A DNA stretch of 64,000 bases from Pseudooceanicola sp. (lineage in GTDB: Bacteria > Pseudomonadota > Alphaproteobacteria > Rhodobacterales > Rhodobacteraceae): positions 62,001 to 126,000 of the forward strand of contig NZ_JARGNH010000003.1 of NCBI RefSeq assembly GCF_029213205.1, written 5' to 3'. Numbering within the stretch: position 1 is the first letter of the stretch; every line of letters begins with the position of its first letter. Below, in pieces: positions 5,524 through 40,551 of this stretch. A model generated the notes under the pieces. It was not told the origin of the DNA. It ran no database searches and saw only the letters and a list, made by a program, of their open reading frames with translations. The position numbers were made by a program, and so were the translations under genes.

Positions 5524-5618
5524 GCCGTTCTCCTATAGGTTCTCTGGGACGGTAGCGGCAGCCGGGCGCATGGACAATCCTGTGCATGGCGGCAATATGC
5601 GAGGGCAAGGGGGGCGCG

Positions 5619-6833
5619 ATGGCACGCAGCACTGACATTCTGATCGTGGGCGGCGGGCTGAACGGCCCGACCCTGGCGCTGGGCCTGGCGCAGGCCGGGT
5701 TTTCGGTCACGGTGATCGACGCGCTGCCCGCCGCAACCCGGGGCGAAGTCGCCTTTGACGGACGCGCCTATGCGCTGGCGCTGGCCTCGGTCCGCTTGCT
5801 CAAGGCGCTGGGCGTCTGGGACAGGGTGGCTGAGCACGCCGAGCCGATGCTGGAGATCAAGGTCAGCGATGGCCATGCCGGGCAGGGCGGTGGGCTGTTC
5901 GGTCTGCAGTTCGACCATGCCGAGATCGAAGAGGGCCCGATGGGCCAGATGCTGGAAGATCGGTTCCTGCGCCGCGCCCTGCTTGAGGCGATGGACGATG
6001 AGCCGGCGATCACCCAAATCTCCGGCGAAACCGTCACCGCGCAGGTGGCGGATGGCGCGGGCATGCGGCTGACCCTTGCCTCGGGGACCGAACTGAGCGG
6101 GGCGCTGGTGATCGGGTGCGATGGGCGACAAAGCGGCACCGCGTCGCGCGCCGGGATCAAGCGCAGCGGTTGGGGCTATGGCCAGACCGCGCTGGTCTGC
6201 GCCATCGCGCATGAGCTGCCGCATCATGGCGTCGCGCATCAGTTCTTCATGCCGCCCGGGCCGCTGGCGATCCTGCCGCTGCCCGGCAATCGGTCCTCCA
6301 TTGTCTGGAGCGAGAGCGCCGCGACCGCGCGTGATTTCATGGCGCTGTCGGATGACGATTTCCTGACCGCCCTGCGCCCCCGGTTTGGCGATTTCCTCGG
6401 CGAAATCCGGCTGGAGGGGCAGCGCTTTGCCTATCCGCTCGGCCTCAGCATCGCGCATGAATTTGTTGCAGACCGGCTGGCGCTGGTTGGCGATGCGGCG
6501 CATGGGATGCACCCGATTGCCGGGCAGGGGCTGAACGCCGGGCTGCGCGATGTGGCGGCGCTGGTGCAGGTGCTGCACGAGGCCGCACGGCGCGGTGAGG
6601 ATATTGGCGCGGCCAGTGTTCTGGGCCGCTATCAGGAATGGCGCCGCTTTGACACCGCCAGCCTGGCGATGGCGACGGACCTGACCAACAAGCTGTTTTC
6701 GAACGACAATCCACTGCTGCGCCTGACCCGTGACATCGGCATGGGCGCGGTGAACGCGCTGCCGCGCCTGCGCCGGGGATTTCTGCGCGAGGCCGCCGGT
6801 CTGACCGGAGAATTGCCGGAATTGATGCGCTGA
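5619..6833 (+). CDS. UbiH/UbiF/UbiL-type FAD-dependent ubiquinone hydroxylase
   Basis: A 404-residue flavoprotein monooxygenase of the family that adds ring hydroxyls during ubiquinone synthesis at the inner membrane. An N-terminal Rossmann motif (IVGGGLNGPTLALGLAQAG), a mid-protein DGRQS motif and the C-terminal FAD/ribityl motif GDAAHGMHPIAGQGLNAG are present. I chose the ATG at 5619 (MARSTDILIVGGG) because GAGGGCAAGG lies just upstream; an in-frame ATG at 5586 would add 11 residues with no homology. Which ring position it hydroxylates (UbiH, F, I or L) cannot be decided here. Confidence 0.88.
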   Translation: MARSTDILIVGGGLNGPTLALGLAQAGFSVTVIDALPAATRGEVAFDGRAYALALASVRLLKALGVWDRVAEHAEPMLEIKVSDGHAGQGGGLFGLQFDHAEIEEGPMGQMLEDRFLRRALLEAMDDEPAITQISGETVTAQVADGAGMRLTLASGTELSGALVIGCDGRQSGTASRAGIKRSGWGYGQTALVCAIAHELPHHGVAHQFFMPPGPLAILPLPGNRSSIVWSESAATARDFMALSDDDFLTALRPRFGDFLGEIRLEGQRFAYPLGLSIAHEFVADRLALVGDAAHGMHPIAGQGLNAGLRDVAALVQVLHEAARRGEDIGAASVLGRYQEWRRFDTASLAMATDLTNKLFSNDNPLLRLTRDIGMGAVNALPRLRRGFLREAAGLTGELPELMR

Positions 6834-6858: not shown

Positions 6859-7194
6859 CTAGTCGATGAATTCCACCGGCCGTTCCCATTGGATCAACAC
6901 GGTGCAACCGTCTTCGGACCAGACCCGGTGTTCGGAGCCTGCGGGATTGAACAGCAGCGCGCCCTGGAAATAGCGGCCCTTGTCGTCGCTCTGACTGCCT
7001 GACAGCACCAGGATCGTCTCAAGTCCCCGATGCCGATGCCGTGGCACCGAGGCGCCGGGCGCGTAACGCAACAGCGCCACATCCGGGCCGCCCTGCCACA
7101 GCCGCATGATCTCGACGCCCGGGTGAAACGGTTCGAACGGCTGATCGGCCCAGCCATCGGGCAGGAAGGCGGCAATCGCCTTGGGGTCAGCCAT
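6859..7194 (-). CDS. ChrR-type cupin domain protein
   Basis: A 111-residue single-domain cupin. The first cupin motif is seen in [16 protein letters not shown] (His cluster plus Glu) and the second in [16 protein letters not shown], so a metal is probably bound. It resembles the C-terminal cupin half of ChrR anti-sigma factors but lacks the N-terminal zinc-binding sigma-inhibitory domain. It is the last gene of the biuret/formamide operon and overlaps the preceding cysteine-hydrolase gene by 8 bp, so it is co-translated. Its role there is unknown: a metalloenzyme, sensor or isomerase are all possible. Confidence 0.8.
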
Positions 7195-7852
7195 CCAGCG
7201 CCTCCAGAATTGTCGCGGTCGGTGTCACCCAGCCGACAATCGCGCCCTGGGCGGTGATCATTTCGATCGTCGCCGCCTTGAAGGCCGGGAAATAGCTTTC
7301 GGTGGCGTCACTGGCGAGCAGGCAGTCATAGCCGCGGTCATTGGCCTCGCGCATTGTCGTTTGCACACAGACCTCGGTGGTGACTCCGGCAAAGACCAGC
7401 TGCCTTATCCCACGCTGGGTCAGTTGCTGGCCCAGGTCGGTGGCGTAGAAGGCGCCCTTGCCGGGCTTGTCGATGACGATCTCGCCGGGCAGCGGCGCCA
7501 GTTCGGCGACGATTTCGGCCCCCGGCGCCCCGGCGATCAGCACCCGGCCCATCGGCCCGGCATCGCCGATCCTGAGCGCGGGCGCGCCGCGCAAGCGCTT
7601 GGCGGGCGGGCAATCGGACAGGTCGGGACGGTGGCATTCGCGGGTGTGAATGACCGGCAGCCCGGCCTTGCGGAATCCGGCGATCAGTTCCGCGACCTTC
7701 GGCACGATGGCCTGCACCAGCGCCACATCGTTGCCAAGGCTGGCACCAAAGCCGCCCGGTTCGATGAAATCGCGCTGCATGTCGATGACGATCAGGGCGA
7801 TGGCATTGGGATCATAGGGGAATTCGAAAGGATCTGCGGGAATCTCGCGCAT
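7187..7852 (-). CDS. Isochorismatase-family cysteine hydrolase (BiuH paralogue)
   Basis: A 221-residue cysteine hydrolase with the triad D24 (VIDMQRDF), K129 ([14 protein letters not shown]) and C162 ([15 protein letters not shown]). A Gln at 202 matches the position of the substrate-contacting Gln of biuret hydrolase. It is related to BiuH two genes upstream but clearly diverged; N-carbamoyl or ureido-type amides are plausible substrates. The start at 7852 overlaps the ABC ATPase stop in a TGATG junction. Two such hydrolases in one operon suggest successive or alternative steps of amide breakdown (inference). Confidence 0.88.
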
Positions 7853-9384
7853 CAGCCATGCCCTGCCATATGCTGGCCGATCTCGGCGATATCGGCGGTT
7901 TCAATCGGAGTTTCAAAGGTCACCCGCCCCTCGGACATCACCAGAACCCGGTCGGACAATTCCAGTATCTCGTCCAGATCCTCGGAAATCAGCAAGATGG
8001 CGGTGCCGTTGTTTCGCGCCTCGATCAGCCGGTCGCGGATCGAGGAGACGGCGGCGAAATCCAGGCCGAAACAGGGGTTGGAGACGATCAGCGCCTTGAC
8101 CGCGCCGGTCAATTCGCGGCCCAGCACCGCGCGCTGCACATTGCCGCCAGAGAGCGCGGCGATGCGCGCGGCGGGCGAGGTCGTCTTGACGTTGAACCCG
8201 GCGATCAGGTCATCGGCATTGCGCGCGATGGCCCCGGCGTTCTTCCAGAATATCGTGCCGCCATCGGCGGAGGCGTCAAACATCCGGAAGGCCAGGTTTT
8301 CGGCAACGCTCATCCTTGGGGCGCAGGCATTGCGCAGCGGTTCCTCGGGCAGATAGCGGATCTGATGCGCGCGCGCCTCGCGCCGCGTGGCGGAATAGGA
8401 TGCGCCGTTGACCCGGATTTCGCCCCCCGTCAGCCGCCGCTGGCCGGTCAGAATCTCCATCAGCTCCATCTGGCCATTGCCGGAAACACCCGCAATTCCG
8501 AGGATCTCGCCGGAATTCAGGGTCACGTCGTCGATTTCGATATTGTGCAGTCCGGTGCGGTCCTTGGCGGTGACGCCGCGCAGTTCCAGCAGTGGCTTTT
8601 TAACCGTCGTCGCGCGGCCCCGGTCGCTGACAACCGGCGCTTCGCCCATCATTGCGCGGCTCATCTCCTCGACGCTCATCTCGCCGACCTTGCCGCCGCC
8701 GACATATTTGCCGCGCCGCAGGATCGAGACTTCGTCGGCAAAGGCGCTGACCTCGCGGAATTTATGGGTGATCATCAGCACGGTGATTTCGCTCGCCGTG
8801 GTCAGCGCCCGGACATGGCTCAGCACCTCATCGGCCTCGCCGGGGGTCAGGACCGAGGTCGGCTCGTCCAGGATCAGAAAGCGGTTGCCGAGGTAGAGCT
8901 GCTTGAGGATCTCGAGCTTTTGCTTTTCCCCCGCCGCCAGGCGGCTGACCGGCTGATCCAGCGGCACCGAAAACGGCATCCCGGCCATGAACGCATCCAA
9001 CCGGCGCCGTTCGCTGCGCCAGTCGATCACCGCCGGGGTGTCGGCGCGGCTGATCACCAGGTTTTCGGCGGCGGTCAGCGACGGCACCAGGGTGAAGTGC
9101 TGATAGACCATGCCAAGGCGCAGGGTCTGCGCCATCTTGGGATCAGTCATCACCGCCTGACGGCCATCGACCAGCAATTCGCCCTCAGTGGCGTGATAAA
9201 ATCCCATGATGCATTTGACCAAGGTGGATTTCCCGGCGCCGTTTTCGCCCAGAAGCGCGTGGAAGGTCCCGGCACGAATGGTCATCGAAACATTGTCGAG
9301 CGCGGTGAAATCGCCAAAGCGCATGGTCATATGCAGCGCCTCGACGCTGATAGCCCCGGCTTCGGTGGGGTCATAACGGCTCAT
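7852..9384 (-). CDS. ABC transporter ATP-binding protein, BMP/nucleoside type (two ATPase domains)
   Basis: A 510-residue duplicated ATPase like those energising BMP-type nucleoside or sugar importers. Domain 1 has Walker A GENGAGKS (46-53), signature [13 protein letters not shown] and Walker [10 protein letters not shown]. Domain 2 has the degenerate P-loop [14 protein letters not shown] and signature [15 protein letters not shown], as is usual in this subfamily. Start 9384 ([10 protein letters not shown]) overlaps the BiuH stop by 4 bp (ATGA); longer upstream extension would lie inside biuH. It partners the two permeases at 11080-13115, from which it is separated by amiF and biuH. Confidence 0.93.
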
Positions 9385-10061
9385 CCCGGCAACCCGGCGA
9401 TCAGGCTGGCGCTGTCGCTGACCGCGCCAAAGACGCCGCCCTGCATCCGTACCATATTGATGGCAGCCACATGGTTGGCCGGATCGGTGGCGCCGCAGCA
9501 ATCCTCGACGATCACGCATTCAAAGCCGCGGTCATTGGCCTCGCGCATGGTGGTCGAGACGCAGACATCGGTGGTGATTCCGGTCAGGATGATATTCTCG
9601 ATCCCGCGCAGCCGCAGGATCATTTCTAGATCGGTGGCGCAGAAACTGCCCTTGCCGGGCTTGTCGATGATCACCTCGCCTGCGGCCGGGTAAAGCTCGG
9701 GAATGATGTCCCAGCCGGGTTCGCCACGGATCAGGATCTTGCCACAGGGGCCTGCGTCGCCGATGCCCGCGCCGATCTGCTGTGAGCGCCAGCGTTTGTT
9801 GGCGGGCAGATCCGAGAGATCGGGGCGATGCCCCTCGCGGGTATGGATGATGTGATAGCCCTTGGCCCGCATCGCCGCCATCAGGGCCTTGATCGGTTCG
9901 ATCGGTGCCTGGGTCAGCGTCAGGTCATAGCCCATGTGATCGACATAGCCGCCCGTGCCGCAGAAATCGGTCTGCATGTCGATGACGATCAGCGCGGTGT
10001 TGTCCGGGCGCAGATCTCCGTTATAGGGCCAGGCATAGGGGGTGCTGGTGATCGTGGTCAT
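9381..10061 (-). CDS. biuH: Biuret hydrolase (biuret amidohydrolase) BiuH
   Basis: Cytoplasmic cysteine hydrolase converting biuret to allophanate and ammonia. The 226-residue protein resembles, as I recall it, the crystallised Rhizobium leguminosarum BiuH almost throughout ([29 protein letters not shown]). Its D28, K134, C167 and Q207 correspond with a constant offset of 8 to the D36, K142, C175 and Q215 I recall for that enzyme. The neighbouring amiF, ABC importer and divergent atzF supply uptake and the next catabolic step. It starts 11 bp after the amiF stop and overlaps the ATPase gene by 4 bp. Confidence 0.92.
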
Positions 10062-10072
10062 GGGCTGGGCTC

Positions 10073-11068
10073 CTATTCACCAAAGCGGCGGGTTGGCGCG
10101 GGAAAGCCGAATCCGGTGCCGTCGGTGATCTTGATGCTGTCCTCCCAGGGCAGGCGGTATTGCCCGGCGGCGAGGTCATTCATGTAGGTGTACGGACAAT
10201 CCTGGGCGCCGCCTTTGACCGCGACATAGCCACGATGGCCGAATTGATAGGGGTTGTTCTCAACCCCCCAACCGGCGCGGGCCTCGCGCACCAGATCGGG
10301 GCGCACCTCGGCAGAGATGATCTCATCGGCGCGACCAGTCTGGCCATGGGCGATGACGCTGCCGTCGAAATTGACGATCATGCCTTCGCCCATGCTGTCA
10401 AAGCTGCCGTCGGACCCGCACATGCAGACATTGGCGGTGACCATCAGGTTGCAAAAGCTGTTGGATTGATTGGTGAAGCGCCAGGACTCGCGGATCGGGG
10501 CAGTGTATCCGGCGGTGCGGATCATGATCTCGGCCCCCTTGTAGGCCGCCTCGTGCGCCATTTCCGGGAACATGCCGTCATGGCAGATGATCAGGCCGAT
10601 TTTCGATCCGTTCGGACCATCGCAGACCGGGATGCCCTGATCCCCCGGTTCCCAGGGTTCGACCGGCACCCAGGGGTGCATCTTGCGGTAGTAGAGGCGG
10701 ACCTCGCCAAGGTCGTCGATGATGATGCCGCTGTTATAGGGATAACCGTCCGGGTTCGCCTCCATGATCGAAAAGCAGCCCCAGATGGCATTGTCGATAC
10801 AGGCCTGTTTCAGCGCCGCGACCTCGGGGCCGTCCATGGTGCACATGATCTCGGGGTTGGTGTCCATCGACAGCCCGTGCAGCATGTATTCCGGGAACAC
10901 CACCAGATCCATGGTGCCCAGATTGCGCCGCGCCTTGCCGACCAGCTCGACCACCCGGGCGGTCTGTGCGGTCAGGTCGGCCTTGGTTTTGACCACAGGC
11001 AATTGCAATTGCACCAGCCCGATGACCACGCCGTTTTCGGATTTGTTGAGACCGCCAAGTCCGTTCAT
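10073..11068 (-). CDS. amiF: Formamidase AmiF (nitrilase superfamily)
   Basis: Hydrolyses formamide to formate and ammonia. The 331-residue protein matches the Helicobacter AmiF pattern throughout. The nitrilase triad is E60 ([10 protein letters not shown]), K129 (YYRKMHPW) and C162 ([10 protein letters not shown]), with the family's C-terminal [16 protein letters not shown] stretch and GRFG-type ending (RRFGE). Start 11068 ([10 protein letters not shown]) follows AAGGA; the open frame upstream of it lies inside the permease gene. Its place between the permeases and biuH implies that simple amides and biuret are handled together. A related aliphatic amidase specificity is possible but less likely. 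Confidence 0.9.
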
Positions 11069-11079
11069 CAGATTATTCC

Positions 11080-12006
11080 TTATTTTGTCAGGCTTAGTTC
11101 CAGCGGCGCGCCCTGCATGGCGCGGTCGGGGGAAGAGGTGAGGATCAGCAGCCCCAGGGTCAGCACATAGGGGGCGGCGAAGAACAGGTAATAGCCCTCG
11201 GACACGCCGACCGATTGCAGCGCCGGGCCAAGCGCCCCGGCCCCGCCGAACAGCAGCGCCGCCCAGAAGCAGTTGATCGGGTTCCAGCGGGCAAAGATCA
11301 CCAGCGCAATCGCCATCAGCCCCTGGCCAGAGGACACGCCCTCGGTCCAGCTGCCGGGATAATAGAGCGACAGATAGGCGCCGCCGATCCCGGCCAGCGC
11401 GCCGCCCGCCCCGGTGGCCAGCAGCCGCACCCGGTCCGGGCTGAGGCCCATCGCCCGGGCCGCATCGGTGCTGTCGCCGACGACCCGCACGATCAGCCCG
11501 ACGCGGGTGGATCGGAACATCCAGGCCATCGCCACCGCCAGCAATCCACCGGCGATGAACAGCACATTGACCTGAAGCGCCGCGCGCAGTTGCGGGATAT
11601 CCGACCACCAGCCCAGGTTGAAGGCGGGCAGGTCTGGCGCCTGTGGCTGGATGTAGGGCTTGCCGAAAAAGAAGGCGAGCCCCATGCCGAACAGCATCAT
11701 TGCGATGCCGACGGCAATGTCGTTGACGCCCTTGAACTTGCAAATCCAGCCGTGCAGCAGCCCGAAACAGGCCCCGGCCAGCGCCGCCGCCAGCACCCCG
11801 ACAAAAGGGTTGCCGGATTCATAGGCCACGGCGTAGCCGCTCATGGCGCCGAAAACCAGGGTGCCTTCAAGCCCCAGGTTGATCCGCCCGGAGCGTTCGG
11901 TCAGGCATTCGCCGAGCGAGACAAAGATGAAGGGGGTCGAGACCCGGATCGCCCCGCCGAGGATCGCCAGCGGCACCCCCCAAAGACCGATTTCAACCTG
12001 ATCCAT
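11080..12006 (-). CDS. ABC transporter permease, BMP/nucleoside type (second permease)
   Basis: A 308-residue inner-membrane permease of the branched/nucleoside class (YufQ-like), with about eight hydrophobic segments and the typical LGLEGTLVFGAMSGY and NDIAVGIAMMLFG stretches. Start 12006 overlaps the stop of the preceding permease gene in a TGATG junction, so the two subunits are translationally coupled. With the 12006-13115 permease it forms the channel of the importer whose binding protein is at 13117-14238 and whose ATPase is at 7852-9384. Confidence 0.92.
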   Translation of the reverse strand: MDQVEIGLWGVPLAILGGAIRVSTPFIFVSLGECLTERSGRINLGLEGTLVFGAMSGYAVAYESGNPFVGVLAAALAGACFGLLHGWICKFKGVNDIAVGIAMMLFGMGLAFFFGKPYIQPQAPDLPAFNLGWWSDIPQLRAALQVNVLFIAGGLLAVAMAWMFRSTRVGLIVRVVGDSTDAARAMGLSPDRVRLLATGAGGALAGIGGAYLSLYYPGSWTEGVSSGQGLMAIALVIFARWNPINCFWAALLFGGAGALGPALQSVGVSEGYYLFFAAPYVLTLGLLILTSSPDRAMQGAPLELSLTK

Positions 12007-13115
12007 CAGCGATGCTCCCAGAATGCCGGGGTGAAGATGCGCAACCGGCCATAGAGCGCCTCGCTCAGCAGGATGATGACAAAGACCATGCCCTCGAACA
12101 CTTGGATGGTGGCGTCGGGCAGGTCCATCCGGCGCTGGATCAGGCCACTTGAGGCCTCGAAACCGCCGAGCAGCACCGCCACCGGCAGGATGGCCAGCGG
12201 GTTGTGGCGGGCCAGAAAGGCGACCAGGATCCCGGTATAGCCATAACCGGCGATCAGCGAGGCATTGGCCGAGCCATGCACGGCGGCGACCTCGAAATAC
12301 CCGGCCAGCCCGGCGAAGGCACCGCCAAGCGCGGTAAAGCCGATCACCAACCGGCTGACCGGCAGGCCCTGAACCTGCGCGGCGCGGACGTTGTCGCCAG
12401 CGATCCGGGCGGCAAAGCCCAGGGTGGTGCGTTCGATCAGGATCCAGCAGAACAGGCAGGCCAGCACCCCGGCCACCACCCCCCAATGGGCCGCGACAAA
12501 GGGCATGTCGCCGACCCTCAGCCCGGCCTCCAGCGGCGCGGTCGAGGGTTTGTTGAGGCTGGCGGGGTCGCGGAACGGCCCCTCGACGAAATGGTTCATC
12601 AGCGCAATCGCGATATAGGCCATCAGCAGCGATGAAATCGTCTCGTTCACCCCGCGCTTGATCCTGAGTGCGCCGATCGTGCCGATCCAGAGCCCGCCGA
12701 GGGCCATTCCGGCCAGGGCCATGGTCACCATGCCGATGCCCGCAGGCAGGCCGGCCACCGCGGTGCCGGTCACCGCCGCCGCCAGACCGCCGAGCACAAT
12801 CGCGCCCTCGCCGCCGATGATCACCAGACCCAGCCGCGCGGGCAGGGCGACGCAGAGCGCCGCCAGCACCAGCGGCGCCACCCGGCTGAGGGTGTTCTGC
12901 CAGGAAAAGGCCGAGGAGAACCCGGCCTTCCAGACCAGCGCATAGAACTCCGCTGGTGATTTGCCGATGGCCAGCAGAAACAGGCTGAACGCCGCCGCCC
13001 CGGCCAGCAAAGCGCCGACAGGGATGAGGACTGCCTCGGCCCGGAACATCAGGCCAATCAAGGTCTGCGCGCCGGTGCCATGGCCCCGCGCCGGTATCTG
13101 CGCCTGGCTGGTCAT
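12006..13115 (-). CDS. ABC transporter permease, BMP/nucleoside type (first permease)
   Basis: A 369-residue integral membrane permease (YufP-like), longer at its N-terminus than its partner. The conserved region LARVAP..GEGAIVLGGLAAAV and GVNETISSLLMAYIA identify the family. I place the start at 13115 (MTSQAQIPARGHG), 1 bp after the BMP gene stop at 13117; an in-frame ATG at 13214 would lie within that gene. It is co-transcribed with the binding-protein gene. Confidence 0.92.
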   Translation of the reverse strand: MTSQAQIPARGHGTGAQTLIGLMFRAEAVLIPVGALLAGAAAFSLFLLAIGKSPAEFYALVWKAGFSSAFSWQNTLSRVAPLVLAALCVALPARLGLVIIGGEGAIVLGGLAAAVTGTAVAGLPAGIGMVTMALAGMALGGLWIGTIGALRIKRGVNETISSLLMAYIAIALMNHFVEGPFRDPASLNKPSTAPLEAGLRVGDMPFVAAHWGVVAGVLACLFCWILIERTTLGFAARIAGDNVRAAQVQGLPVSRLVIGFTALGGAFAGLAGYFEVAAVHGSANASLIAGYGYTGILVAFLARHNPLAILPVAVLLGGFEASSGLIQRRMDLPDATIQVFEGMVFVIILLSEALYGRLRIFTPAFWEHR

Positions 13116-13116
13116 T

Positions 13117-14238
13117 TTAGCTGGTGGACCCGAGCACGCCCTCGACGAGGTAGTCCATGCTCTCCAGCTTGACGTCGGTTTCGACAAAGCCCTCGCCTGC
13201 GGCAGCGATGACATTGCCCTTGTTGTCCTTCAGCGGGCCCTTGATCGCGGCAAAGCCACCGGCCACGATCTCGGCCTTGACCGCCTCGAACTGGGCACGC
13301 GCGGTGTCAGAGACGGCCGGGCCAAGCGGGCTCATCTTGATGAAGCCATCGGCGAGGCCGCCGCGGACGAAGTTGTCGATCGGCTCGCCCGCCATCGTCT
13401 TGGCCACCATGTCGGTATAGACGCTGGCCCAGTTCCATTCGGCGCCGGTCAGATACATGTCACCGGCCAGCGGGCTTTGATCGGCGTGATAACCGCAGAC
13501 ATAGGCGCCGCGCGCCACGGCGGTTTCGCAGACCACCTTGGGCCCGTCGACATGGCAGGTGATGACATCACAGCCCTGATCGGCCAGCGCATTGGTTGCC
13601 TCGGCCTCTTTCACCGCCAGTGACCATTCGCCGGTAAAGATCACCTGACAGGTGATCGTCGGATCGACCGCGCGGGCGCCGAGCAGGAAGGAGTTGATGT
13701 TGTTCAGCACCTGCGGGATCGGCTTGGCCGCGACAAAGCCGATCTTCTTGGTTTTCGAGGCATGGCCAGCGGCGACACCGTTCAAATACTGGCCCATGCC
13801 GATATAGCCGAAATAGGACCCGGCATTGGTCGGATTGCCCTCGGTCCAGAGCCCGCCGCAATGTTCAAAGCGCACGTCGCTGTATTTCGGTGCCAGCTCA
13901 AGGATATGGGGATTGAAATAGCCAAACGAGGTCGGGAACAGCAGTCCGGCACCGTCGAAATTGATCATCGATTCCATGGTGTTCTGGACGTCCTGGCTCT
14001 CCGGCACGTTTTCCTCTTCCAGAACCGTCACCCCGGCCATCGCCTTGACCGCAGCGGCGCCTTCGGCATGGGCCTGGTTATAGCCGAAATCGTCCTTCGG
14101 CCCGACATAGATGAAGCCGACGGTCAGGTTGTCTGCGGCCATTGCGGGCCGGGACAGGCCGCCAAGGGCAGCAGCCCCCAGCGCGGCGGTCGAGGCGCCC
14201 AGAAAGCGGCGGCGATTGAGAGGGGTGAATGTGGTCAT
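13117..14238 (-). CDS. BMP-family ABC substrate-binding lipoprotein/periplasmic protein
   Basis: A 373-residue periplasmic binding protein of the BMP (PnrA/Med) family, first gene of the importer operon. The N-terminus carries NRRRFLGASTAALGAAALGG followed by an AMA-AD cleavage site, a twin-arginine-type signal without a lipobox Cys. The mature part begins LTVGFIYVGPKDDFGYNQAHAEGA, typical of the family. Known relatives bind nucleosides, but the operon's enzymes suggest a small amide such as biuret, formamide or a ring-derived ureide (inference). Start 14238 precedes the twin-arginine motif; the upstream frame is not protein-like. Confidence 0.92.
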   Translation of the reverse strand: MTTFTPLNRRRFLGASTAALGAAALGGLSRPAMAADNLTVGFIYVGPKDDFGYNQAHAEGAAAVKAMAGVTVLEEENVPESQDVQNTMESMINFDGAGLLFPTSFGYFNPHILELAPKYSDVRFEHCGGLWTEGNPTNAGSYFGYIGMGQYLNGVAAGHASKTKKIGFVAAKPIPQVLNNINSFLLGARAVDPTITCQVIFTGEWSLAVKEAEATNALADQGCDVITCHVDGPKVVCETAVARGAYVCGYHADQSPLAGDMYLTGAEWNWASVYTDMVAKTMAGEPIDNFVRGGLADGFIKMSPLGPAVSDTARAQFEAVKAEIVAGGFAAIKGPLKDNKGNVIAAAGEGFVETDVKLESMDYLVEGVLGSTS

Positions 14239-14293
14239 GGCATTGCTCCAGCAGCTGTTCCTGCGCCGACCTGCGGAAGGCGCGGTGGTGTGA

Positions 14294-14319
14294 CACTCAA
14301 AGGTTAGGGTATTTGAGTG
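14294..14319. promoter_or_regulatory. Inverted repeat in the leader of the importer operon
   Basis: CACTCAAA (14294-14301) and TTTGAGTG (14312-14319) form a perfect 8-bp inverted repeat with a 10-nt spacer, 56-81 bp upstream of the BMP gene start. The flanks are unusually AT-rich for this genome (TGCTAATATTTTGCC at 14331-14345). It could be an operator half-site pair or a 5' UTR hairpin of the operon's mRNA; sequence alone does not decide. Confidence 0.45.
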
Positions 14320-14352
14320 CTGTTGACGTCTGCTAATATTTTGCCAAAGCGA

Positions 14353-14365
14353 TGCAAAAAATGCA
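14353..14365. promoter_or_regulatory. Predicted LysR-type operator (T-N11-A), importer operon side
   Basis: TGCAAAAAATGCA has the LysR consensus form T-N11-A with TGCA at both ends. The same 13 bases recur at 15302-15314. The site lies between the end of the lysR gene and the BMP gene start, about 115 bp upstream of the latter, a normal position for LysR activation. Confidence 0.6.
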
Positions 14366-14369
14366 CCAC

Positions 14370-15287
14370 TCAACCTCCGGGAGAATTGGCCTCGCGGAAC
14401 GGTTCCATCGCCTGCGCCAGCCCCTGGGCAAAGCGGGCCGAGGCGACCGGCAGGGTGCGCCCGCGCATCTGCCCCAGCAGCAGATTGCCCGGGGGCATGT
14501 CGCGGGTGGATATCGGGCGCATCACACAGTCGCTGTCCGGTCCGCAGTGCAGGCCAATCGGGATCTGAAAGGCCACCGCGTTTTCGTGGCGCACATAATG
14601 ACGCATGAACTCAAAGCTGTCGGATTCGGCAATCGGGTTCAGCGGCCGCGATCCCAGCGCCGCGGCGGTGTCCAGCAATGCCCGCACCCCGTATTGCGAG
14701 GTCGGCAGCACATGCGGATGGTCCAGGCAGTCGCGCAGCCGCACCACCGGCTTTGCCGCCAACGGATGGTCGCGGCGGATCAGAATGTTGATGATCTGCG
14801 GCACCGCCATCAGCACTTCAAAATCGACCAGATGCACCGGCTCGAACACCAGCGCCAGATCGCTGCTGAACTCGGCCAGCTCACGTTCCGCCGCCTCGCG
14901 GTCGCGGACCCGCACCGAAAACGACACGCCGGGGTGATTCTGCCGATAGGCGGCGATCTGGGCGGGCAGGAAATAGGGAATCAGCGCCTGCGAACAGGCA
15001 ACCGAGACATGGCCGCGCCGTTCCCCCGACAAATCGGCGACCTGGCCCTGCACCCGCCGCAGGTCTGAGGCCTGCACGCGGAAATGCTGCATCAGCAATT
15101 CACCCGCCGGGTTCAGCCGCACGCCGCGCGGCAGGCGTTCAAAGATCTCATAGCCGAATTCCTCTTCAAAGCGCTGAATCCGCCGGTTCAGCGCCGAGGC
15201 GGTGATGTTCATGTCATCCGCGGCCTTGCGGATCGACCCGGCCCGGGCCACGCCTTCGACATAGTGAAAGGTCTGTAAATGTTTCAT
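14370..15287 (-). CDS. LysR-family transcriptional regulator of the biuret/formamide locus
   Basis: A 305-residue LysR regulator. The N-terminal winged helix-turn-helix is within residues 1-60 (GSIRKAADDMNITASALNRRIQRFEEEFG), and a periplasmic-binding-like effector domain follows. It sits upstream of the importer operon on the same strand with a 131-bp gap, and is divergent from atzF with a 120-bp gap. Identical T-N11-A sites in both gaps make it the natural regulator of both arms and of itself. The effector is unknown; biuret, allophanate or a nitrogen-status signal are possible. Confidence 0.93.
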   Translation of the reverse strand: MKHLQTFHYVEGVARAGSIRKAADDMNITASALNRRIQRFEEEFGYEIFERLPRGVRLNPAGELLMQHFRVQASDLRRVQGQVADLSGERRGHVSVACSQALIPYFLPAQIAAYRQNHPGVSFSVRVRDREAAERELAEFSSDLALVFEPVHLVDFEVLMAVPQIINILIRRDHPLAAKPVVRLRDCLDHPHVLPTSQYGVRALLDTAAALGSRPLNPIAESDSFEFMRHYVRHENAVAFQIPIGLHCGPDSDCVMRPISTRDMPPGNLLLGQMRGRTLPVASARFAQGLAQAMEPFREANSPGG

Positions 15288-15301
15288 CCGGCGCCTTGTG
15301 C

Positions 15302-15314
15302 TGCAAAAAATGCA
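15302..15314. promoter_or_regulatory. Predicted LysR-type operator (T-N11-A), lysR/atzF divergent gap
   Basis: TGCAAAAAATGCA again, identical to 14353-14365. It lies 15 bp upstream of the lysR start codon and about 94 bp upstream of the atzF start, so one site could serve autoregulation and divergent activation. Confidence 0.6.
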
Positions 15315-15407
15315 TCGGTTTTGTGAATTCTTAGCATTTGAACTCAGCCCTCAAAAAGGGGGAGGTAGCAAACACACCACGCGCATTGCCGCCAAGAAGG
15401 TCCAGCT

Positions 15408-17207
15408 ATGTCAAATCTTCCCGAAATCAAGATGACCATCCCCGATCTGCACCGGGCCTATGCCAGCGGAGTGTCACCCGAAGCGGTCATTGCGCAGGTG
15501 TTCGCCCGGATCGCGGACATCAACGATCCCGGCATATTCCTGGCGATGCCGAGCGAGGGTGCGGCGCGGGCCGAGGCAGCAGCGTTGGGCGCCTTTGATG
15601 CCGCCCGCCCGCTCTGGGGGGTGCCGTTCGCGGTCAAGGACAATATCGATGTCGCCGGGTATGAGACCACCGCGGCTTGCCCCGCTTTCGCCTATACGCC
15701 GGTGGAGGATGCCTTTGTCGTTGCTCGGTTGCGTGCCGCCGGGGCGATCTTTGTCGGCAAGACCAATCTCGATCAGTTTGCCACCGGTCTGGTCGGGGTG
15801 CGCACGCCCTATGGCGCGCCGCTGAATTCGATTGATCCCGAGATCGTGCCGGGCGGATCCTCGGGCGGGTCCGGGGTGGCGGTGGGTCATGGCATTGTTG
15901 CCTTGGCGCTGGGCACCGACACCGCCGGCTCGGGCCGGGTGCCGGCGGCGCTGAACAATATCGTCGGGCTGAAACCGACGCTGGGGGCGCTGTCGGCCAG
16001 CGGCGTGGTTCCGGCCTGCCGGTCGATCGAAACCGTGTCGATCTTTGCACTGACCGTCGCCGACGCCCATGCGGCGTTTCAGGCCTGTTGCGCCTATGAC
16101 CCCGGCGATGCCTTTTGCAAACCCGTGGCAGCGCCGGGGCTGAGCCGCCGCGCCGCGCCGCCGGTGATCGGCATTCCCGATCCGGCCAGCATCCGGTTCC
16201 TCGGCGACGCGGTGCAAGAGGCCAGCTTTCAGGCGGCGGTCGATCTGTTGCGCGGGCAGGGCGCCGAGATTCGCGAGATCGATTTCACCCCGCTCTATGC
16301 GGTGGCCGAAATGCTCTATGAAGGCGCCTGGGTGGCCGAACGCTATACGGTGATCGCGGATCTGCTGGCCCGTGATCCCGAGGCGATCCTGCCGGTCACC
16401 CGGCAGATCATCGGCAAGGCCGAGACGCTGAGCGCGGCGGATGCGTTTCGCGGGCTCTACCGGCTCAAGGATCTGGCCCGTGCCGCCGAACCGGCGCTGG
16501 CCGGGCTCGATGCGCTCTGCGTGCCGACGATCCCGACCTTTTACACCGTGGACGATCTGGCGACCGATCCGGTGGGGCCGAATTCCAACTTCGGCACCTA
16601 TACCAATTTCGTCAATCTGCTGGACATGTGCGGCATCGCGGTGCCGGTCCCGGCCCGCGCCGATGGCCGCCCGGGCAGCGTCACCTTGCTGGCCGCGGCC
16701 GGGCAGGACGCAGAGATCGCCAGCATCGCGCTGGGGCTCGAGGCGGCCGGGGCGCGCAACCTGGGCGCCACCGGCTGGCCGTTCACGCCAGCGACGGACC
16801 TGCCCGATGCCGCGCCCGAAGGGCTGATTCTGGCGGTTTGCGGCGCGCATATGTCCGGCCTGCCGCTGAACCATCAGCTGACCGAGCGCGGCGGCGCGTT
16901 TCTGGGCGCGGCCTGCACCAGCGATGCCTATCGCTTCTACGCGCTGGCCGGTGGCCCGCCTGACCGGCCCGGCCTGGTGCGCGGCACGGCGGGCAGCGGC
17001 GCGGAAATCGCGGTTGAGCTTTGGCAGTTGCCGCTGGCCGAGGTCGGCAGTTTTCTGCGCGCCATCCCGGCGCCGTTGGGGCTGGGCAGCATCGCGTTGG
17101 CCGATGGCCGGGTGGTGCAGGGGTTCCTGTGTGAATCTGCCGCGGTCGACGCCGCCAGCGACATCACGGCCATAGGCGATTGGCGGCGCTATATCGCCAG
17201 GATATAG
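15408..17207 (+). CDS. atzF: Allophanate hydrolase AtzF
   Basis: Converts allophanate to ammonia and CO2, the step after BiuH. The 599-residue protein has an N-terminal amidase-signature domain with K77 ([14 protein letters not shown]), S151 ([10 protein letters not shown]) and S175 ([15 protein letters not shown]). These match Pseudomonas AtzF K91, S165 and S189 with a constant offset of 14. From about residue 465 it has the allophanate-hydrolase C-terminal domain ([19 protein letters not shown]). There is no urea-carboxylase gene nearby, which favours a biuret rather than urea role. Start 15408 follows AAGAAGG; MTIPDLH at 15432 is an alternative. Confidence 0.95.
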
Positions 17208-38250: not shown

Positions 38251-40551
38251 ATGACCAAAGCGATACGTCAGGGCCGAATCGAAGATCGCAGGCTGATCAC
38301 CGGCAAGGGCCGCTATGCTGACGACATCACCGAAACCGCCGCCCTGACGGTGGTGTTCATGCGCGCGCCGATGGCCTCGGCCCGGGTCCTTTCGCTTGAC
38401 ACCAGCACCGCGAAAGGGATGCCGGGGGTGGTGGCGGTGTTGACCGCACAGGATCTGGCCGATGACGGTATCGGGCCGGTGCAGACGCCGATGAAACTGG
38501 CCGGGCCGGATGAACGGGTCTGGGAGGCGACACCGCGACCGCTGCTGGTCAGCGACAGGGTGCGCCATGTCGGCGAACCGATGGCGATGGTGATCGCCGA
38601 AACCCGCGCCCAGGCAATGGATGCCGCCGAAGCCATCGAGGCCGAGATGGACGAGCTGGCGGCGGTAATCGATGTCGCCGAGGCGACGGCCAACGGCGCG
38701 CCGTTGGTGCACGAAGACCGCCCTGGCAACCTGGGTGCCGAATGGGAGCGCGGCGATTGGGCGGCGGTGCGTGCCGCCATCGACGCCGCACCGCACAGAG
38801 TGCTGGCGCAGGTGCCGGTCAGCCGGGTGACCGCGATGACGATGGAGCCGCGCACCGCCCTGGCCCGGCCTGAGGGCGCAGGCAAGTTCGCGCTCTTTGC
38901 CAGCCATCAGAACCCGGTGGCGATGCGCGCCGCGCTGGCGCAATTCCTGAATATGGAGCCCGAGGCGATCCGCTGTGTGGCGGGCGATGTCGGCGGCGCT
39001 TTCGGGATGAAATCCGGGCCGCTGCGCGAGGAAACCCTGGTGTTCTGGGCGGCGCGATATCTGAACCGGGCGCTGCGCTGGCGCGCCGATCGCAGCGAGG
39101 GCTTTCTGACCGACGAGGCCGGCCGGGATATGGCGATCGAGGTCGAACTCGGGTTGGACAATGATGGCACCATCCTGGCGCAAGCGGTGACCGCGCGGCT
39201 GAATATCGGCGCCTATGCCACCGCAAGGTCGCTGCCGCCGGTGCTGAATTTCGGTGGCGTCGCCGGGGTCTATCGGACGCCGCTGATCGCCGGACGAATG
39301 CGCGCCTATCTGACCCATACGGTGCCGGTCGCCCCCTATCGCGGCGCCGGGCGACCCGAGGCAACCTATGCGATTGAAATGGCTCTGGATATCGCGGCCC
39401 GCCAGATCGGCATGGACCGCATCGAACTGCGGCGGCGCAACCTGATCCAGCCGGCCGAAATGCCATGGAAATCGAAATTCATCTTTGACTATGACAGCGG
39501 CGATTTTCCGCGGCTGCTGGACCATGGGCTGAAGCTGGCCGATGCGGCAGGCTATCCGGCGCGCAAGGCCGCGTCGGAGGCGGCAGGCAAGCTGCGCGGC
39601 TTTGGTCTGGCGATGTGTATCGAAACCGCGGGCGGGCTCTGGGGATCGCCGGGACGCGATTTCGCCGATGTGTCAATCAATGCCGATGGCTCGGTCACCC
39701 TGGGTGGCGGCGGGTTCTCGGCTGGGCAGGGGCTGGAAACGACGTTGTCGGATATCGCCGCCGAGGGGCTGGATCTGCCGGTCGACCAGGTCGCTTACTA
39801 CCAGGGCGATACCGACCGGATGCAACGTGGCGGCGGCATGGGCGGGTCCGGCGGCACGATCAAGGTCGGCTCGGCGGTGCGCGACGCGGTGGAAAAGGTG
39901 CTGGCCCAGGCCAAGGACCTCGCCTCCGACTCGCTGGAGGCCGATGCCGCCGATATCGAATACGAGGCCGGGGTGTTTCGCATCGCCGGGACCGACCGCG
40001 AGCTGGCGCTGGCTGAAATCGCCCGCACCGCCATCGACCGGGGCACGCCGCTGCTCGGCAAAGGTGAATTCGTCACCGACGGGCCGACCTTTCCCAATGG
40101 CTGCCACATCTGCGAGGTCGAGCTGGACCCGGAGACCGGGCAGGTGCGGATCGACAGCTACACCGGGGTCGAGGATATCGGCCGGGTGATGCAGCCGCAG
40201 ATCGCCTCAGGTCAGATCCAGGGCGGTGTGGCCCAGGCGCTGGGCCAGATCTTCATGGAAGAGATGCGCTATGCCCCGGGCGACGGTCAGCTGCTGACCG
40301 GATCGTTGATGGATTACGCACTGCCCCGTGCCGGTGATCTGCCGGCGCTGGTCACCGGGTTTTCCAACGTGCCGACCACCAAGAACCCCTTGGGGGTGAA
40401 AGGCGTGGGCGAGGCCGGATCGGTTGGCGGGCTGGCCGCCGGGATGAGCGCGGTCTGCGACGCGCTGGCGCAGGCCGGGGTGGACAGCTTTGACATGCCG
40501 GCGTCGCCGGGGCGGGTCTGGTCGGCGCTGCAGATGGTGTCCGAGGGGTAA
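38251..40551 (+). CDS. Xanthine-dehydrogenase-family molybdopterin-binding subunit
   Basis: A 766-residue large subunit of a molybdenum hydroxylase (CO dehydrogenase/aldehyde oxidoreductase type). The N-terminal a/b hammerhead domain (about 10-120) starts RLITGKGRYADDI. Molybdopterin-binding stretches include GDVGGAFGMKSGPLREE, APYRGAGRPEATYAIE and GGGFSAGQGLETTLSDIA. The catalytic Glu is E721 in KGVGEAGSVGG. The FAD and 2Fe-2S subunits that normally sit beside it are absent: both flanking genes are on the other strand. GGTAGGAG precedes the start. Confidence 0.92.
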   Translation: MTKAIRQGRIEDRRLITGKGRYADDITETAALTVVFMRAPMASARVLSLDTSTAKGMPGVVAVLTAQDLADDGIGPVQTPMKLAGPDERVWEATPRPLLVSDRVRHVGEPMAMVIAETRAQAMDAAEAIEAEMDELAAVIDVAEATANGAPLVHEDRPGNLGAEWERGDWAAVRAAIDAAPHRVLAQVPVSRVTAMTMEPRTALARPEGAGKFALFASHQNPVAMRAALAQFLNMEPEAIRCVAGDVGGAFGMKSGPLREETLVFWAARYLNRALRWRADRSEGFLTDEAGRDMAIEVELGLDNDGTILAQAVTARLNIGAYATARSLPPVLNFGGVAGVYRTPLIAGRMRAYLTHTVPVAPYRGAGRPEATYAIEMALDIAARQIGMDRIELRRRNLIQPAEMPWKSKFIFDYDSGDFPRLLDHGLKLADAAGYPARKAASEAAGKLRGFGLAMCIETAGGLWGSPGRDFADVSINADGSVTLGGGGFSAGQGLETTLSDIAAEGLDLPVDQVAYYQGDTDRMQRGGGMGGSGGTIKVGSAVRDAVEKVLAQAKDLASDSLEADAADIEYEAGVFRIAGTDRELALAEIARTAIDRGTPLLGKGEFVTDGPTFPNGCHICEVELDPETGQVRIDSYTGVEDIGRVMQPQIASGQIQGGVAQALGQIFMEEMRYAPGDGQLLTGSLMDYALPRAGDLPALVTGFSNVPTTKNPLGVKGVGEAGSVGGLAAGMSAVCDALAQAGVDSFDMPASPGRVWSALQMVSEG

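Follow-up and report, generated by a model that had tools for sequence, protein, structure and literature searches.

A probable triuret and biuret nitrogen-scavenging operon with its own BMP-type importer in Pseudooceanicola

Which nitrogen compound does a cluster of amide hydrolases, accompanied by its own importer and regulator, serve in a Pseudooceanicola sp. genome? The cluster occupies positions 6859-17207 of the 64-kb stretch of contig C47 that we analyzed (the window). An earlier note on this DNA had proposed a locus for biuret, formamide, or an unknown compound that yields them, naming a biuret amidohydrolase (BiuH), AmiF, an allophanate hydrolase (AtzF), a BMP-type ATP-binding cassette (ABC) importer, and a LysR regulator. 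Judging from the gene sequences, it is highly probable that the locus is a triuret/biuret nitrogen-scavenging operon. The biuret part of the earlier proposal and the dedicated importer and regulator held up; formamide hangs on one gene, and the role of triuret was missed, the gene list having passed over those for the triuret hydrolase TrtA (7187-7852) and for a small cupin (6859-7194). The core route, from triuret to carboxybiuret, biuret, allophanate, and ammonia, was published previously, and the locus is a further example of this known pathway.

The gene at 7187-7852 was assigned to TrtA on structural matches and active-site residues. Its product finds its best solved match in TrtA 6XIX (E = 1e-89), the best biuret hydrolase reaching only 3.5e-63, and it scores under the NCBIfam cut-off for biuret amidohydrolases (258.7 versus 370 bits). 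TrtA turns triuret into carboxybiuret, which decarboxylates to biuret (PMC7948467). Six positions that differ between TrtA and BiuH were chosen in the same paper: F35, N41, A134, E160, Y187, and I205. All six are identical to 6XIX in the window protein, the Cys-Asp-Lys triad is intact, and the agreement extends to all 14 active-site or discriminating positions that we checked. A TrtA alignment scan of one genome per species found at least 576 relatives; we retained the top 80, and these 80 trtA loci are therefore close relatives. The ten-letter TrtA pattern is common to 79 of the 80 rows, and the remaining one has Met for A134.

AtzF passes the allophanate hydrolase models, with an amidase domain bearing the Ser-Ser-Lys signature and an AH_C domain, which bears out the earlier call. 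The stretches AVKDN, GGSSGG, and GTDTAGS are present. BiuH was also called correctly: it passes the NCBIfam cut-off (416.7 versus 370 bits), its best match is the crystallized BiuH 6AZO (E = 1e-130), and it carries the BiuH letters at the positions that discriminate it from TrtA (pattern DKC YYSDTQV). The crystallized enzyme is that of Rhizobium johnstonii 3841 (PMC5806882). The note had further stated that urea carboxylase and cyanuric acid hydrolase (AtzD) are missing, and this agrees with our searches of the whole genome, which is 95.6% complete. For urea carboxylase, all 19 matches genome-wide fell below cut-off, which makes it improbable that AtzF works in a urea amidolyase system. A search with a real AtzD protein found none in this genome and gave hits in two of five others of the genus; an earlier search with the AtzD Pfam family was silent everywhere, controls included, and thus uninformative. 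Urease is encoded elsewhere in the genome, on contig C51, and could recover any urea arising from allophanate.

The features of the locus, in window positions, are as follows.
6859-7194, minus strand: small ChrR-like cupin (Cupin_7), candidate carboxybiuret decarboxylase, with an 8-bp overlap with the end of trtA
7187-7852, minus strand: TrtA, triuret hydrolase, an isochorismatase-like cysteine hydrolase (structure match and residue check)
7852-9384, minus strand: ABC importer ATPase with two ABC domains, BMP/NupA-type (family models)
9381-10061, minus strand: BiuH, biuret amidohydrolase (NCBIfam model, structure match, and residues)
10073-11068, minus strand: AmiF-like amidase of the biuret-operon group (family model and residues)
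11080-12006, minus strand: ABC permease B, BPD_transp_2 (family models)
12006-13115, minus strand: ABC permease A, BPD_transp_2 (family models)
13117-14238, minus strand: BMP/PnrA-type solute-binding protein with a twin-arginine translocation (Tat) signal, nearest solved relative AtzT (family models and alignment)
14353-14365, no strand: TGCAAAAAATGCA, inverted repeat ahead of the BMP gene, possible operator for LysR (exact-repeat count)
14370-15287, minus strand: LysR-type regulator (family models)
15302-15314, no strand: TGCAAAAAATGCA, inverted repeat in the gap from which lysR and atzF diverge, possible operator for LysR (alignment and exact-repeat count)
15408-17207, plus strand: AtzF, allophanate hydrolase with amidase and AH_C domains (family models and motifs)

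Transcription on the minus strand runs from LysR through the BMP binding protein, permease A, permease B, AmiF, BiuH, the ABC ATPase, and TrtA to the cupin. With the start codons chosen in this analysis, no two neighboring genes from BMP to cupin are separated by more than 11 bp, and some overlap. The AtzF gene diverges from lysR.

Several parts of the proposed route can be read directly, namely a Tat-signal BMP protein with permeases and an ATPase, intact active sites in TrtA, BiuH, and AtzF, and a repeat before both transcription units. The importer would bring in triuret and/or biuret. TrtA would take one ammonia from triuret to leave carboxybiuret, which would lose CO2 to give biuret, spontaneously and perhaps with the aid of the cupin. 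BiuH would then make allophanate, and AtzF would release the last ammonia and CO2. Optionally, AmiF would act as an amidase on a related amide that the cell takes in, and LysR would control both the importer-enzyme operon and atzF.

The set recurs in other genomes, which argues that it is more than a chance grouping. A check of biuret loci for neighboring BMP genes, as the earlier note had suggested, found BMP in 73 of the 80 trtA loci. On these contigs, some of which end early, we counted BiuH in 78, the ATPase in 78, permease B in 77, permease A in 74, the cupin in 69, AtzF in 57, AmiF in 35, and LysR in 22. Six of the seven loci without BMP lie on contigs that end less than 3 kb from biuH or trtA, and one (L091) truly lacks it. 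By record name, 75 of the 80 are from Alphaproteobacteria, including 58 from Hyphomicrobiales. We also sampled 398 Pseudomonadota genomes evenly; in 43 of them, the window's included, a relative of TrtA or BiuH turned up at E = 1e-40, and 40 stretches were fetched from these genomes. Within the genus, 22 genomes were searched (the window's own included), and four others encode a TrtA-like protein of at least 73% identity, all in the same operon.

Two further hydrolase groups came up. Of the 40 fetched stretches, 19 (L121-L138 and L140) hold a second TrtA group that is 55-62% identical and has the full TrtA residue pattern; at the thresholds applied, none of the 19 shows BiuH. In L025 (8657-10176) and L026 (8187-9613), BiuH-like hydrolases occur as tandem pairs; their discriminating residues fit neither TrtA nor BiuH, and they possibly have new substrates.

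Gene gains and losses were counted on a quick BiuH tree of 116 rows, entered at a BiuH identity of at least 66%; two rows repeat genomes already entered, and a recount without them (n = 114) left our assessment unchanged. The tree omits second copies, extra hits beside other stretches, or loci with no true BiuH (L176, L125, L142, L148, and L139), loci found only via the cupin query (L156, L160, L161, L163, and L164), and one at a contig end (L086). A further tally that took in stretches from the cupin query overstates the cupin and was set aside.

Could the locus instead be for biuret and formamide, or an unknown precursor, with AmiF freeing ammonia from formamide? We consider this rather unlikely. 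AmiF does pass the formamidase model (565.8 versus 406 bits) and its E60/K129/C162 triad is intact, confirming what had been said of it. Over 329 aligned positions it shares 145 identities with Helicobacter pylori AmiF, and it retains W137 and Y192, walls said to restrict the pocket of that enzyme to formamide (PMC10781810). The proposal nevertheless ignores TrtA, and no gene making formamide was seen in the operon. Moreover, AmiF was not seen in 45 of the 80 trtA loci (a few on early-ending contigs), and none of the four other same-genus trtA operons has it. When 51 AmiF rows (49 distinct) from biuret loci were compared with two solved formamidases, from H. pylori and Bacillus cereus, none had the residue common to both at 65 positions, part of which is ordinary divergence between groups measured with these two yardsticks. 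Several of the differences adjoin catalytic residues (T63L, Q64H, S190A, S193T, T194A, and Q195P).

By its genomic setting, this AmiF group is tied to biuret loci. We searched even draws of 385 Alphaproteobacteria and 398 Pseudomonadota genomes at E = 1e-60 or better and found this AmiF in 12 and 15 genomes, respectively (window in both), or 24 genomes outside the window. It lies within about 8 kb of BMP-permease genes in 23 of the 24: it directly follows permease B in 17, precedes BMP in 5, and comes after the ATPase in 1. In the exception, L194, the biuret locus of the same genome is on another contig (L141). AmiF changes at least 19 times on the tree, which marks it as an often exchanged guest. 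It is associated with AtzD (16 of 21 versus 41 of 95 rows, Fisher P = 0.008), an association that is not significant on the tree. With triad and walls kept in a divergent, biuret-linked group, formamide is a possible but weakly supported AmiF substrate. An open-access literature search for formamidase together with biuret gave nothing relevant. Oxonate or 5-azauracil can yield formylbiuret; we considered both as sources of an AmiF substrate, and the literature search returned only crystal-structure material. In L170, L191-L193, and L199, BMP-BiuH-ABC operons have no internal trtA and no cupin, and AmiF starts 1 to 7 kb upstream of the operon start; in L199 a solitary trtA lies some 14 kb away from biuH.

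We next consider the importer, which family models show to be complete as the note had claimed, with a Bmp-domain binding protein, two BPD_transp_2 permeases, and an ABC ATPase; LysR is likewise present. The best solved relatives of the binding protein are AtzT (E = 4e-60) and then 3S99. AtzT is encoded beside the cyanuric acid operon and binds guanine (0.11 µM), ammeline (0.36 µM), and 2-hydroxyatrazine, with cyanuric acid bound at merely 340 µM (PMC6834077). The note went too far in regarding BMP-type import of a small amide as novel, given the AtzT precedent (PMC6834077) and the published biuH-trtA loci with bmpA-nupABC in nitrifiers (PMC12625717). Open-access literature searches nonetheless found no BMP protein demonstrated to bind biuret or triuret. 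In the alignment, the AtzT pocket residues Tyr45, Trp194, Ser97, Phe98, and Asn169 are retained, whereas Glu165 becomes Gln176, Asn218 becomes His229, and Asn220 becomes Asp231. The guanine contacts Glu165 and Asn218/Asn220, a comparison confined to AtzT's own contacts, are thus not preserved. Adenine-bound 3S99 also has His and Asp at the Asn218 and Asn220 places, so His229 and Asp231 are not special.

A purine or nucleobase importer for general salvage, with the ureide enzymes cleaning up urate oxidation products, would suit the guanine and adenine bound by these two relatives, the kept residues, which in window numbering include Tyr53, Ser104, Phe105, and Trp205, and the label of nucleoside transporter given to the nitrifier importer (PMC12625717). 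We find this improbable. No purine-ring enzyme is among the ten genes of the operon, and the position of the guanine-contacting Glu165 is Gln in 105 and Thr in 3 of 108 distinct operon BMP proteins, versus Glu in all seven more distant BMP proteins (five distinct) from the same stretches. AtzT strongly disfavors the oxo-triazine cyanuric acid, so a changed residue at this spot fits a changed ligand. The substitution hints at a flat ligand that is richer in C=O and poorer in NH2 groups than guanine, such as triuret, biuret, or cyanuric acid. The three Thr proteins (L171, L173, and L195) belong to operons without trtA that bear a 5-formyltetrahydrofolate cyclo-ligase-like gene, suggesting that the pocket residue moves with operon content, in few events.

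No more credible is a cyanuric acid operon that lost AtzD and has triuret/biuret use left over: AtzD occurs in 18 of the 80 loci, usually between BiuH and the ATPase (the same slot as in same-genus L020), but the 62 loci without it still keep most other genes, and since AtzD changes at least 14 times on the BiuH tree, the window may never have had it.

Within the triuret/biuret pathway, the genomic pattern of the 111-amino-acid cupin fits a role in the carboxybiuret step and it may be the decarboxylase. Its match to the ChrR model is confined to the cupin portion (41.4 versus 124.5 bits), and so it is no full-length ChrR. In an alignment of 46 sequences, H53, H55, H89, and C97 are invariant and E59 nearly so (0.98). 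By reference to cupin families in general, these residues are a putative metal site. AlphaFold models the protein as a confident barrel (predicted local distance difference test score of 95.9). A fold search gave ChrR (3O14) first and then varied cupins, no clear pointer to function. A Pfam scan showed only cupin domains and a sub-cut-off dimethylsulfoniopropionate lyase match, with no homology to AtzH (PF11533), an enzyme that acts on dicarboxyurea (PMC6219798); the analogy to a TrtB/AtzH-type function would lie in gene context. The cupin and an AtzH-like gene are mutually exclusive in 114 distinct BiuH loci (cupin 84, AtzH-like 12, both 0, neither 18). The two AtzH-like genes that we scanned pass the Pfam AtzH-like model and NCBIfam HpxZ, a name from the oxalurate pathway.

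The cupin gene lies directly behind trtA. Of 22 loci from the AmiF searches (some also from other queries), 12 have trtA, and 7 of these carry the cupin, which occurs in 0 of the 10 others (Fisher P = 0.005, uncorrected for relatedness). Here L197 and L198 were scored as lacking trtA although their genomes have a lone copy about 18 kb off, L199 was scored as having it despite the distance noted above, and neither L172, which meets a contig end, nor L194, which has no biuret genes, was counted. Of the 12 closest cupin matches outside the window in the class sample, 11 are beside trtA and biuH and one (L165) is not; three more distant matches that we fetched (L167-L169) have no biuret gene. Other observations speak against a role for the cupin. 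The BiuH tree gives 5 and 8 changes, with 2 independent pairs on supported branches (5 and 8 on all), and with so few independent changes we claim no significance for the exclusion. One locus (L024) has biuH and the cupin but no trtA, 6 of the 80 trtA loci have neither the cupin nor an AtzH-like gene, and carboxybiuret also decarboxylates by itself, with a half-life of about 20 min (PMC7948467). The 5-formyltetrahydrofolate cyclo-ligase-like gene (PF01812) joins the biuret operon at L105 (10665-11438), L171, L173, and L195; we rejected it as a third alternative for the carboxybiuret step, three of its four loci having no trtA.

As for regulation, LysR proteins bind inverted repeats of the T-N11-A kind. 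The repeat TGCAAAAAATGCA, which is of this kind, occurs exactly twice in the window, before the BMP gene and between lysR and atzF, compared with 0.04 expected copies in 64 kb and no pair in 100 shuffles. The form TGCA-W5-TGCA is found again in 13 of the 31 stretches that bear LysR (two being the same place), which hold 16 of its 19 hits in 3.0 Mb overall. We propose the two 13-bp repeats as candidate LysR operators.

In a more novel reading that combines these points, the Glu-to-Gln BMP branch would import linear ureides or cyanurate, a metal cupin would decarboxylate carboxybiuret as a non-homologous stand-in for AtzH/TrtB-type enzymes, and a biuret-dedicated AmiF would act on a formylated or related ureide in place of formamide; all of this holding together is a possibility well short of an even chance. 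According to open-access searches, the pocket signature, AmiF linkage, cupin, and operator appear to be new; subscription papers on trtB or gene neighborhoods possibly mention some of them. Several points weigh against our interpretation. The pocket argument depends on sequence alignment to AtzT, and with His and Asp already in 3S99, it is mainly Gln176 that separates the branch. The repeat pattern was chosen after the 15302 site had been seen in an alignment, leaving the 14353 site as the independent hit, and 18 of the 31 LysR-bearing stretches have no exact repeat. The operon contains no AtzH-like gene, so the carboxybiuret step is unassigned or spontaneous. Finally, the reference strain R. 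johnstonii 3841 (L050) differs in detail, having neither AtzF nor a close LysR inside its 20-kb stretch.

The block adjoins genes for an apparent ribosomal protein L20 and both phenylalanyl-tRNA synthetase chains, named from their translations. Close to the operon lies an amidase (PF01425; 4195-5523, minus strand), but a FAD-binding gene on the opposite strand (5586-6833) stands between the two; the amidase is probably unrelated. A molybdopterin subunit of the xanthine dehydrogenase/aldehyde oxidase type is encoded at 38251-40551 (plus strand).

These results correct a plausible misreading, placing triuret rather than formamide at the center of the locus. Next to biuH, an importer that carries the label of nucleoside transporter shows a consistent change in its pocket, and the entry of biuret, triuret, and cyanuric acid becomes directly testable. 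The pathway breaks down fertilizer impurities and oxidized urate, and its carboxybiuret step and its AmiF now have named candidates.

How does the locus compare with known systems? Its AmiF shares family, triad, and wall residues with the H. pylori and B. cereus formamidases and differs from them at the 65 positions and in its genomic link to biuret genes. With the ChrR anti-sigma factor the cupin shares the Cupin_7 domain, the metal-site residues, and the best fold match (3O14), but only the cupin part matches, in a 111-residue, operon-bound protein. The regulator AtzR of Pseudomonas sp. ADP is of the LysR type. In that strain, atzRSTUVW and atzDGEHF combine an AtzT-type importer with AtzR divergent from nitrogen-releasing hydrolases that include AtzF (PMC6834077, PMC6219798). 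In contrast, AtzD, AtzG, AtzE, and AtzH are not among the ten genes of the window, which has BiuH and TrtA instead, and Glu165 is replaced by Gln. Nitrifiers carry biuH-trtA-trtB-atzF with bmpA-nupABC, placing triuret enzymes beside a BMP-type importer as in the window; trtB is reported in ammonia-oxidizing bacteria and absent in comammox (PMC12625717). A word search of the main text of that paper finds neither "cupin" nor "formamid", and one of the main text of the TrtA paper finds neither "ABC transport" nor "formamidase" (PMC7948467). The triuret pathway of Herbaspirillum sp. BH-1 and R. leguminosarum/johnstonii 3841 has the same three enzymes with the same active-site residues (PMC7948467). 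Strain 3841 has AtzD, which the window does not, and its order of BMP, permease A, permease B, AmiF, BiuH, AtzD, ATPase, TrtA, and cupin is otherwise that of the window from BMP to cupin, AmiF included.

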